Source: Fundidesulfovibrio soli
GTDB taxonomy: Bacteria > Desulfobacterota > Desulfovibrionia > Desulfovibrionales > Desulfovibrionaceae
Length of the DNA: 64,000 nt
Assembly (NCBI RefSeq): GCF_022808695.1
Contig: NZ_JAKZKW010000008.1
Span: forward strand, 62,001-126,000
Direction: 5' to 3'
The notes beneath the pieces are model-generated. The model was not told the origin of the DNA and did not search any database. It was given only the letters and a program-made list of their open reading frames with translations. The stretch's first letter is position 1. Each line of letters starts with the position of its first letter. The position numbers were made by a program, and so were the translations under genes. Shown piece after piece: positions 28,365-54,707 of this stretch.

Positions 28365-28453
28365 GCCTTCCGGGTGACCCTGCCGGGACGGCGCATGACG
28401 ATATTCTTCCGATATGTCGGCGTGCGCCGTCCCGGCAGGGCCACCCGGAAGGC
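28365..28453. repeat. long hairpin with conserved loop, family B copy 1
   Basis: Arms of 31 bases (28365-28395 and 28423-28453) are complementary with one mismatch. The 27-base loop contains GATATTCTTCCGATA, matching the loop of copies 2 and 3 (GATGTTCTTCAAATA). The arm sequence is unrelated to the arms of the other two copies. Confidence 0.85.
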
Positions 28454-28482: not shown

Positions 28483-28525
28483 GGGGTTCCAAGGGGACGA
28501 AGTCCCCTTGGCCGCCGGAGGCGCT
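28483..28525 (+). repeat. intergenic palindromic repeat, family A
   Basis: GGGGTTCCAAGGGGACGAAG then TCCCCTTGGCCGCCGGAGGC. Relative to the 19601 copy the stem has changed from AAAGGG/CCCTTT to AAGGGG/CCCCTT, a paired change that keeps the hairpin. Confidence 0.75.
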
Positions 28526-28592: not shown

Positions 28593-30207
28593 ATGGCAAC
28601 GCCTCACGCCGCCGCTCCCCACAGGAAAATCGCCTGGGCCACAGCCCTGATCTTTCTCATTTTTCTATACGCCGAGGGCGCTTGCCGCCTGCTGGACCAC
28701 ATCCAGGCGGGCGGACGCGGATCGCCAGAGGACGCGGTGGGAATCCGGCACGAGCTCCTCGGCACCCGCCTGAATCCCGGGGCGGCCACACCCTCGGTCA
28801 CGATCAATTCGCTCGGATTCCGGGGGCCGGAAATCCTGCCGTCGCGGACGCCGGGCCGCCCCAGGATCGCCTGCCTCGGCAGCTCCTTCACCTTCGGACA
28901 GAATGCCGCCTTGGGACGCCACCGCCTACCCCGGCGCCCTGGCGGAGCTGCTCGGCGCCGCCACGGGCGGGCAGGTGGAGGTGATCAACGCGGGGGTCCC
29001 GGCTCATACAAGCCTCCAGTTCCTGCTGCGGCTCCAGGAGGAGATCATCCCGCTCTCGCCGGACCTCGTCCTGCTGGGAGACGGGTTCGACAACATTCTC
29101 CTCGCCGCGAGCCTGGCGCAGCATCCCTGGCTGGATCTGCCCGAGCGCCGCGATCTGGCGGACGCCGCGCACAGGCTGTACCTCCTGGACGAACTGACCA
29201 CGCCGCTTCTGCGGCTCTCCTCGGTCCGCAAGCTGCGGGACGCCTCCCGGAGGCTCTTTCCCGGGCCTGTCTGGCACGCGCCCGCATCTGCCGAGGCGAT
29301 GTGGCGCTACGGGCTGGAGAAATACGTGGCGCACACGTCCCTGACCGTCGAGACCCTGCTGCGCGCGGGGATCATGCCGGTACTGGTGAACTTCCCGGTG
29401 CTTCAGGCCAGGGGGAGCATTTTCAATCTGTCGGCCGACAAAGTGGCCATGCTCGAATTCATCCGCGGCGAGCTGAACGATGCGAACAGGGCGCTCGCCA
29501 GCCGCTCCGGTGTTCCGCTTGTGGACGCCTCCGCCGAGATGGCGGGATACCTCGCCGACCCATGCGGGCAGTTCGCCCTGTTCAGCGATTACATCCACTT
29601 CTCCAACCAGGGGTACGTCCAACTGGCCGACGTCCTTGCGCGGGGAATTCTCGCGAATCCCGCCTGCCGCCAGGCCCTCGGCATCACGAGAACCCCGGAC
29701 GCCGGCTCCATGGAAGCCCGCTACCGCGAGGTGCGGCGGGCCATAGCCTCCATCGCCCCCGCATCGGGGTTCGTCACCCGCCCCGCACGGTCCGACGCGG
29801 CGAAGCCGTCGTTCGCGAACGTGAAGCCGGGCGATGCGGACCAGAAAGGGTGGCGGCCCTACGAGGCCAAGGATGCGGCGCTGCCCGCGACCATCGGCAT
29901 GGCCCCCCCGGAAGGCGGATGGTCCGGCGGCTGTCTGCTGTTCTATCCCCGTGGCTCCTCGCCCCAGGGCCGGGTGGAGGTGCGCGCCGTGGACGGCGAG
30001 GGTTCGTTCCGGCCGCTGGCGGTTTACAGCCCGGCCACCCGAGCGGGAGCATGGACCAACGTGGGGGACCGGCACTTGATCGACCTCCCCGAGGAGGTTC
30101 GCGGCCAGCGGATCGAGGTCGTCCTGATTGGGGACGGCGTGCAGGTCTGGGGCGACGCCGGGGGCGTTCTCTTCGAGCCTGACGCCGTCGGCAAGCTCGA
30201 CCCGTGA
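28593..30207 (+). pseudogene. SGNH-hydrolase-like membrane-anchored protein, interrupted by a frameshift
   Basis: Two overlapping frames together make one protein of about 535 residues. The first part (from the ATG at 28593) has a membrane anchor (residues about 12-30) and the SGNH opening NSLGFRGPE...RIACLGSSFTFG. After about residue 107 the similarity continues in the next frame (DATAYPGALAELL, VEVINAGVPAH, the catalytic DYIHFSNQGY, then a C-terminal beta-rich domain). Removing one G from the TTGGGACG run near 28911-28914 would restore the frame. Block I is GSS rather than GDS. It could be a true pseudogene, a sequencing error or a programmed shift. Repeats of both families flank it on each side. 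Confidence 0.75.
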
Positions 30208-30236: not shown

Positions 30237-30280
30237 CGGGGTTCCAAGGGGTTGAAGTCCCCTGGGCCACCGAAGGCGCT
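30237..30280 (+). repeat. intergenic palindromic repeat, family A
   Basis: CGGGGTTCCAAGGGGTTGAAG then TCCCCTGGGCCACCGAAGGC: same orientation as the copy at 28483, with a diverged CCGCCGGAGGC end. Confidence 0.65.
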
Positions 30281-30295
30281 GCCTTTGTCTCGGCT

Positions 30296-30378
30296 CCAGG
30301 CGTGGCCTCTCCAAGGCCGAACTGCCCGCTGTATTTGAAGAACATCCGCCAGTTCGGCCCTGGAGAGGCCGCGCCTGG
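30296..30378. repeat. long hairpin with conserved loop, family B copy 2
   Basis: 29-base arms (30296-30324 and 30350-30378) pair with two mismatches. The loop, read on the minus strand, contains GATGTTCTTCAAATACAG, identical over 18 bases to copy 3. The arms share no sequence with copies 1 or 3. Confidence 0.87.
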
Positions 30379-30447
30379 ACCCGCTACGGCTCACAGCGTC
30401 CGCAACGCGGCAAACATGCAAGGCGCTCTCTCCCCGGAAATTACCGC

Positions 30448-54250: not shown

Positions 54251-54347
54251 GGGGTTGTTGCGGTAAGAAGGAGATTAAGCCGGGGGTGTTGTCTGTTTGC
54301 CCGTTTCAGACGCTGTGAGCCACGGCTGGAGCCTAGACAAGAAGAAT

Positions 54348-54400
54348 GCCTCCGGCGGCCAAAGGGAGTCCCTCCCTTTGGAATCCCTTCCGGCTTCGCG
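54348..54400 (-). repeat. intergenic palindromic repeat, family A (inverted copy)
   Basis: GCCTCCGGCGGCCAAAGGG, AGTCCCT, CCCTTTGGAATCCCTT, CCGGCTTCGCG. This is the complete family pattern on the minus strand, including the CGCGAAGC end. Confidence 0.78.
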
Positions 54401-54472: not shown

Positions 54473-54498
54473 AAGGAGGCGGGAAACACCTCCTTTTT
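54473..54498 (+). terminator. terminator in the Gate-protein downstream region
   Basis: AAGGAGG (54473-54479) pairs with CCTCCTT (54489-54495), followed by TTTTC. About 220 bases after the gene stop. Confidence 0.7.
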
Positions 54499-54569
54499 CG
54501 TTCGGCCAGCCCGGATCGCAATACTGGCCGGTTGTTCTATCCTGGCAGTATAACGCCTGGCGACGCATT

Positions 54570-54660
54570 GGCCCCGGTGCAGGCCTCCGCCGCGCCGCGC
54601 CTGGCGATGTTCTTCAAATACAGCGGCGGGCGCGGCGCGGCGGAGGCCTGCACCGGGGCC
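54570..54660. repeat. long hairpin with conserved loop, family B copy 3
   Basis: 31-base arms (54570-54600 and 54630-54660) are perfectly complementary. The loop (54601-54629) contains GATGTTCTTCAAATACAG (54606-54623). The arms are unrelated to those of copies 1 and 2. Confidence 0.9.
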
Positions 54661-54707
54661 GGGTTGCGACGAAGCACCGCGGCAGGGCCAGGGCCGCGAA
54701 CAGCCGA

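Follow-up and report, generated by a model that had tools for sequence, protein, structure and literature searches.

Bacterial palindromic repeats are usually classed by a common stem sequence. The GTAG- and CGTC-tagged REPs treated in the sections of Di Nocera 2013 (PMC3733652) used here are 20-40 bp long and are grouped into families and sequence types by the sequence of their stems. For TnpA-REP and IS200/IS605, the corresponding sections of PMC8266576 describe recognition of a single-stranded hairpin that bears a 5' motif and, for one of the groups, a stem irregularity. Concerted change of both arms has been treated elsewhere: template switching is offered for it in the discussion section of PMC6649704 on nematomorph mitochondrial inverted repeats, and the correction of quasipalindromes by template switching also changes both arms together, as outlined in the cited part of PMC7202029.

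The window analyzed here is a stretch of 64,000 nucleotides from the draft genome of Fundidesulfovibrio soli (G000; 4.0 Mb, 41 contigs). A first-pass annotation, made from the sequence alone, had reported three hairpins in it, and both the sequence and a gapless inverted-repeat scan placed all three where it had put them. They are true members of one repeat family. Their parts are as follows, together with those of a probable scar.

54552..54668, + strand: copy A, with a degenerate 5' box, a perfect 32-bp stem at 54570-54660 (0 mismatches), the loop GATGTTCTTCAAATACAGC and a 3' flank

30284..30400, - strand: copy B, with the 5' box GACGCTGTGAGCCG, a stem at 30291-30383 (34 pairs, 3 mismatches), the loop GATGTTCTTCAAATACAGC and the 3' sequence GGAGCCGAGACAA

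28346..28462, + strand: copy C, with the 5' box GCGCCGTGGTCCG, a stem at 28365-28453 (31 pairs, 1 mismatch), the loop variant GATATTCTTCCGATATGTC and the 3' sequence GGCTCAAAGCAC

54302..54345, + strand: probable scar (by eye), a 5' box running straight into a 3' end (CAGACGCTGTGAGCC followed by ACGGCTGGAGCCTAGACAAG) without the stem-loop between them

Two of the three loops are identical, as had been claimed, but the pair is the one at 54606 (+) and 30346 (-), which agrees over 21 bases (GATGTTCTTCAAATACAGCGG), and not the second and third copies; the loop of copy C at 28400 is the CCGATA variant. A second palindromic intergenic repeat, GCCTCCGGCGGCCAAAGGG ... CCCTTTGGAACCCC, lies in the window at approximately 28483-28523, 30238-30279 and 54348-54388, and it is also found near many hairpin copies in G000 and in its congener G009, on either side.

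The loop pattern GAT[AG]TTCTTC[AC][AG]ATA matched 61 times in the 4.0 Mb of G000 and the backwards-read pattern not once, so the family is not a product of chance. All of the 36 matches with 70 nt on either side fold as long hairpins (-75 to -120 kcal/mol); two of these, L010 and L019, look garbled on one side. The remaining 25 matches lie at contig ends, and poly-G/C or N runs stand beside several others. Nine end-to-end matches, eight of them independent (one end has two partners), indicate that the contig-end matches are mostly halves of broken hairpins, which leads to approximately 53 copies in G000. The draft assembly of this genome breaks at hairpins of the family.

The association was also followed from the hairpins to the loop. 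In the window and 650 kb of G009 picked for matches, the tip was present on 33 of 35 long inverted repeats, the exceptions being a 21-bp palindrome and a poly-G/C stretch, while the 799 kb of G009 between the picked regions held three long hairpins, one of them poly-G/C and none with the tip. This amounts to 33 of 38 long hairpins over the combined 1.51 Mb of window and sampled G009, a sample that covers 1.45 of approximately 3.9 Mb, with the first 40 regions match-bearing by choice and the next 40 lying between them. The bare tip (TTCTTC, then AA, CG, CA or AG, then A) was armed in 34 of 44 occurrences in the window and the picked 650 kb, in none of 8 in the 799 kb between, and at 64 of 75 in loci mostly fetched for their matches. 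Mostly armless loop matches or mostly alike arms, which by the first-pass annotation would have made these ordinary repeats or chance hairpins, were thus not what was found, with the limit that one loose cluster takes in 26 of 50 stems.

Copy number is patchy, as is usual for dispersed repeats. Exact matches to the pattern numbered 61, 48, 2, 2, 0, 0 and 0 in the seven Fundidesulfovibrio genomes; with one mismatch allowed, G009 had 62, G050 (also a congener of G000) 6, G075 4, and G094 and G106 1 each, not all of them checked for arms. The distribution of copies across wider groups was followed by model searches; as these scored no more than 18 candidates per genome in the family and 12 in the order, match counts for copy-rich genomes are to be read as "at least". 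Model R1 matched 8 of 199 genomes of the taxonomic family at E<=0.01, G094 and G158 being tip-less by eye, with eight matches over seven places in G050. The order-wide search, run with stricter filters at the loss of weak matches, hit 5 of 297 genomes at E<=0.001, all in two genera, Fundidesulfovibrio and g25. In the latter, the core (<=3 mismatches) was found 51 times in the one-contig genome G121 and 28 times in G058; 12 congeners searched had 1 to 4 occurrences each. Loop matches outside the two genera were folded for 6 of 15 other-genus genomes with a match, for 16 of the 51 listed loci from outside F. agrisoli and for all 9 viral loci; they were armless by eye, whereas L072 of G050, folded alongside them, has arms.

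What results is a coherent family, a REP-like palindromic repeat variant set apart by a constant 9-nt loop whose stem covaries and is free in sequence. The placement known from REPs was found, namely a high copy number in intergenic gaps of unidirectional or convergent type, and within the REP account used here (PMC3733652) the strain-variable number and the motif at the foot of the palindrome are further traits in common. By the same account, the family differs from REPs in its hairpins of 80-95 nt, its free stem sequence, its constant 9-nt loop and the lack of a general tag. Within 16 nt around the 5' foot, GTAG occurred in 5 and CGTC in 6 of 36 copies in G000 (shuffled means 1.3 and 3.1), and each in 1 of 46 copies in G121 (shuffled means 2.4 and 2.8). 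The hairpin with its 5' motif and stem irregularity resembles the targets of TnpA-REP and IS200/IS605 as PMC8266576 presents them in the sections cited; however, no match to PF01797, which would represent a cognate RAYT (Y1 transposase), was obtained in G000, G009, G050 or G121. The nematomorph repeats share the long perfect arms but are organellar and lie within coding sequence, with no constant loop mentioned in the part of PMC6649704 used. Rfam 15 at the gathering score returned no match in the window and seven loci from G000, G050 and G121, and full-text searches of an open-licence library on palindromic or stem-loop repeats, conserved loops, Fundidesulfovibrio, perfect palindromes and template switching listed no title or opening abstract describing such a family.

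When 32 copies were aligned on the loop, the loop was the best-conserved part, followed at a moderate level by positions -52 to -42 and -31 on the 5' side, positions near +34 and +43 on the 3' side and some stem positions. The parts of the element are a 5' box, which in Fundidesulfovibrio resembles CGCNGTGANCCG, a stem of 30-41 bp, a 9-nt apical loop and a weak CAACC-like 3' motif. The conserved box lies outside the arms, approximately 42-52 nt ahead of the loop, and the 3' motif outside the arms is weaker. Of the 39 Fundidesulfovibrio copies that a crude 12-mer test could decide, 38 have the box ahead of the loop; 10 more were undecided. Taken together, we regard the element as probably, though only just, a directional dispersed repeat of approximately 115 nt and of the REP/MITE type. 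The contrast drawn earlier, in which an ordinary mobile repeat keeps its ends and this one does the reverse, fails, since the ends are conserved here too (5' box and 3' positions).

The loop proper has the consensus TCTTC-NR-AT and is counted as 9 nt, since GAT[AG]T and A[TC]ATC on either side of it pair with each other and covary. The conserved loop reported at first therefore holds as a constant tip, but consists of these 9 nt plus part of the stem. In Fundidesulfovibrio the tip reads TCTTCAAAT or TCTTCCGAT; G050 and g25 carry the same 9 nt (TCTTCAAAT, TCTTCGAAT, TCTTCTAAT, TCTTCTGAT) atop other inner stems. In G121, where 40 fetched regions held 46 hairpins and one core without good arms, an inner 7-bp helix is invariant in the 33 aligned copies and is followed by a 2x3 internal loop and then by the variable arms; all 33 carry the same T.G wobble on their loop-sense strand. 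A short coding sequence, with the loop read as (I/M)FF(K/R)Y in one frame, might be suspected, as ATR TTC TTC AAA/CGA TAY varies in Fundidesulfovibrio like synonymous or similar codons. We give this next to no credence: the R/Y variation is that of base pairing (G-C 13, A-U 9, of 23), and the same loop on a different inner stem in G050 changes the peptide. The CTTCAAA of the tip is similar to the anticodon loop of tRNA-Sec, a likeness judged a coincidence because the loop varies.

The arms covary in both genera. In 23 copies of G000, hand-chosen from 31 printed ones and compared over a 41-pair stem, 91.7% of cells were paired and double-sided changes occurred at 34 of 41 pairs, with a covariation score of 0.611 against 0.175 for shuffled and at most 0.121 for slid controls. 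For 33 of the 46 copies of G121, chosen to comprise the majority of copies showing either of the two most frequent offset geometries, the values were 92.7%, 22 of 33 pairs and 0.409 against 0.116 and at most 0.090. As G121 is a single contig of 4,686,982 bases, the family is no artefact of draft assembly. Two origins had been proposed at the outset. The first, in which the loop is recognised and the stem may have any sequence, agrees well with the loop and the strong covariation in two genera. An inverted duplicate copied from flanking DNA is unsupported, since the arms are inherited and common to orthologous sites, sequence outside the arms is conserved, and long arm matches elsewhere are lacking. 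In 1.6 Mb outside the hairpins, the longest among the best matches to the arms measured 19-20 nt, the longest exact match (19 nt) equalled the reversed control, and there were 16 matches at E<0.01 against 9 in that control.

The arms are nonetheless not unrelated between copies, as had been supposed. Left-arm identity averaged 48% against 35% for shuffled arms, 17% of copy pairs exceeded 60% identity against 0.2% (50 gapless stems of 57), and single linkage at 70% identity sorted the 50 stems into 18 clusters, the largest being the one of 26 mentioned above. This likeness beyond chance means that copies share common ancestors and drift in step. Among mismatches at pairs 8-34 in Fundidesulfovibrio, G.T outnumbered A.C by 52:16, an excess that thins to 17:5 with one copy per cluster and to 28:15 (summed by hand) with two hot positions removed; in G121 it was 31:20 (also summed by hand) and not significant. 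The constant wobble and the Fundidesulfovibrio G.T excess suggest that the loop-sense strand, as RNA or single-stranded DNA, folds by itself. Differences between copies are mainly of the transversion type (294 of 410 and 230 of 280), which would not be favoured by a G-U route; saturation in a GC-rich genome would also yield transversions. Arm pairing may be upheld by selection or by arm-to-arm copying.

Orthologous sites in G000 and G009 were printed as 23 pairs, one of them unalignable and several visible on one side only. Sums were done by hand on 9 of 16 pairs, those with un-replaced arms; L054, L046, L019 and L027 were left out for arms that were replaced or badly garbled, and L013, L032 and L030 gave no loop under the script filter. 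In the nine pairs the arms diverged at 77 of 720 sites (10.7%), close to the flanks (355 of 3148, 11.3%), and yet 11 matched double changes, six transition-type and five transversion-type, stood against approximately 1.4 expected by independence. In addition, 41 one-sided arm changes were counted. In three of the 23 pairs (L012/L192, L052/L198, L010/L190), the flanks stay fixed but the loop stands in the opposite orientation. Exchange between arms would have this effect, but both assemblies are drafts broken at hairpins and L010 is garbled on one side, so no weight was rested on these inversions. They may be assembly artefacts, as the loop cannot be oriented by assembly words that do not reach the length of an arm.

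Such numbers bear on a mostly mutational explanation, in which template switching between the arms perfects the palindromes without selection for pairing and only loop and box matter. It is favoured by the matched changes in arms that diverge as their flanks do, by the even mix of transitions and transversions among those changes, which gives no sign of a G-U route, and by the loop inversions, which however may be assembly artefacts, both genomes being multi-contig drafts. The SbcD model TIGR00619 matched none of 11 genomes of the two genera, whether copy-rich or copy-poor, with 13 of 14 controls detected, which also speaks for it; without this nuclease of palindromes the group may be more tolerant of them, but that leaves unexplained which genomes are copy-rich. 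Template switching that perfects quasipalindromes is described for E. coli in the part of PMC7202029 cited, and accounts for pairing alone, not for the constant loop, the box or the copy number. The persistence of the 41 one-sided changes means that copying is not fast, and the constant core geometry, internal loop and wobble of G121 imply structural constraint. We consider the mutational explanation rather improbable.

At five orthologous sites (L054/L195, L046/L183, L019/L200, L027/L208 and L030/L185) the stem differs while the flanks match, and in L030/L185 the loop subtype differs as well. L195 scored 46 with another copy against 26 with its orthologue, L019 and L200 each scored 46 against 22, and L046 scored 36 with copy A of the window against 12, on a scale where the 99th percentile of all copy-pair scores is 48; only weak partners were found for L054 (32 against 26) and L183 (29 against 12). 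Judged from these scores, the differences would fit an exchange between copies, without proving it.

Presence and absence at orthologous loci, a comparison proposed at the outset, revealed two differences. G009 is without copy A and approximately 297 bp around it, and the tip was not found at the copy A locus in five further congeners. At L009/L306, the 5' box and CTCCAACCC are still present in the G009 sequence, and precisely the stem-loop is lacking, between two CTCC repeats. This is the sole precise empty site, the CTCC repeat is not general among copies, and loss by slippage explains the site as well as insertion does. For 18 distinct G000 loci of full context, both flanks were traced in the sampled G009 DNA, which was largely picked for loop matches; L009 was the only one of them whose tip was missing there. 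At a loose threshold, the 5' box was matched 159 times over the 1.51 Mb, and 24 of these matches had a hairpin; since a reversed control on one strand gave 48 matches, only the highest-scoring boxes are meaningful. Among the 22 that scored >=22.9, 16 had a hairpin by the script test. The others were, by eye, the empty site L306, a degenerate hairpin (L185:11035), a shortened one (L315), a truncated one (L314), a solitary box with a full copy shortly downstream (L202:12963) and a chance or coding-like match (L207:15030).

All 55 copies examined lie outside predicted genes, as called by our own codon-usage script, which was trained on Fundidesulfovibrio and used on G121 too. Gaps (>=150 nt) with a hairpin were divergent just once among 46 in Fundidesulfovibrio, compared with 110 times among its 400 hairpin-free gaps, and never among 44 in G121, where 10 of 23 hairpin-free gaps are divergent; this places the copies in intergenic sites off divergent promoters. 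Of the 32 G121 copies between co-directional neighbours, 30 have the loop in sense orientation (p = 2e-7); for Fundidesulfovibrio the count is 20 of 32, which is not significant (p = 0.22). Upstream genes end at a median of 203 and 313 nt from the loop, farther than the short REP distances given in the sections of PMC3733652 used, which speaks against a simple 3'-end role. No replication-strand bias was evident by eye in G121, and a gene unit common to hairpin pairs 2.2-2.4 kb apart was not found.

GC-rich hairpins downstream of genes might be ordinary intrinsic terminators. We hold this to be very improbable: the 40 nt downstream of the hairpin showed no T tract (T 15-16%, C 32-34%), copy A lies past a separate hairpin with its own T run (approximately 54474-54499, by eye), and the conservation of loop and box would be left unexplained. 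A host cis-acting RNA element, regulatory or linked to 3' ends or termination, bound at its loop and spread by ordinary duplication with no mobile phase, would agree with the 30:2 orientation in G121, the near absence between divergent genes, the loop common to two genera, and the fact that in G121 the arms covary strongly while the loop, the internal loop and the wobble stay constant. However, it does not sit well with a copy number that falls from tens to nearly none inside one genus, with the empty site and the box-only or truncated copies, with the distant upstream gene ends, or with the lack of a significant orientation bias in Fundidesulfovibrio, and we regard it as unlikely.

A mobiliser was sought as well. 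Besides the four genomes named above, PF01797 had no match in G075, G094, G106 and G080. Matches were found in the copy-rich G058 (one gene) and in G025, G187, G142, G159 and G132; as the domain thus occurs in a copy-rich genome and in copy-poor ones and had no match in G121, Y1 and copy number do not correlate. The search with the PF04986 (Y2) model detected none of its controls and carries no weight. The 346 proteins encoded no more than 1.6 kb away from sampled hairpins included five recurring clusters, none of them transposase-like by its first residues.

The explanation we consider probable, if by little, is a small dispersed and directional repeat of the REP/MITE type that is read by its loop and box and has a stem of free sequence. 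A factor recognising the folded strand through the loop and the 5' box would have dispersed the copies. Those retained would lie at places where transcription turns them into 3' or intercistronic RNA hairpins, tolerated or used, for example, as stabilisers of RNA 3' ends. The arms would stay matched because unpaired copies fail at the dispersal or the RNA step; a mutation in one arm may also be copied to the opposite arm through template switching at the palindrome, and whole stems may sometimes be swapped by exchange with another copy. This explanation is weakened by the absence of a mobiliser among the candidates searched, the non-significant orientation bias in Fundidesulfovibrio, the shrinking G.T excess, the single empty site and the far gene ends.

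A more specific proposal, which we put forward tentatively and with more doubt than belief, is that the stem is nearly sequence-free: a factor or the host transcript would read nothing but the outer box and the 9-nt tip, while the arms would copy each other as a self-templating spacer. If true, such an element could change most of its bases and yet stay the same element across genera. In the family as observed, the stem is mainly a shape under a constant loop, seen in copy-rich genomes of two genera. Repeat finders based on similarity would split it into small groups, and like families may therefore go unnoticed elsewhere. Its orthologous copies also lend themselves, as a natural experiment, to testing how the arms of DNA palindromes are kept matched and what it is that reads the loop.

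Two further observations concern the arrangement of the copies. The gene at 28903-30207 lies between copies C and B, with the hairpins flanking it, and its best G009 matches are distant (27% identity), so the region around it differs between the two species. In G121, L365 and L366 each hold a hairpin pair in the same orientation, 186 and 214 nt apart, possibly a tandem arrangement like that of REP dimers.
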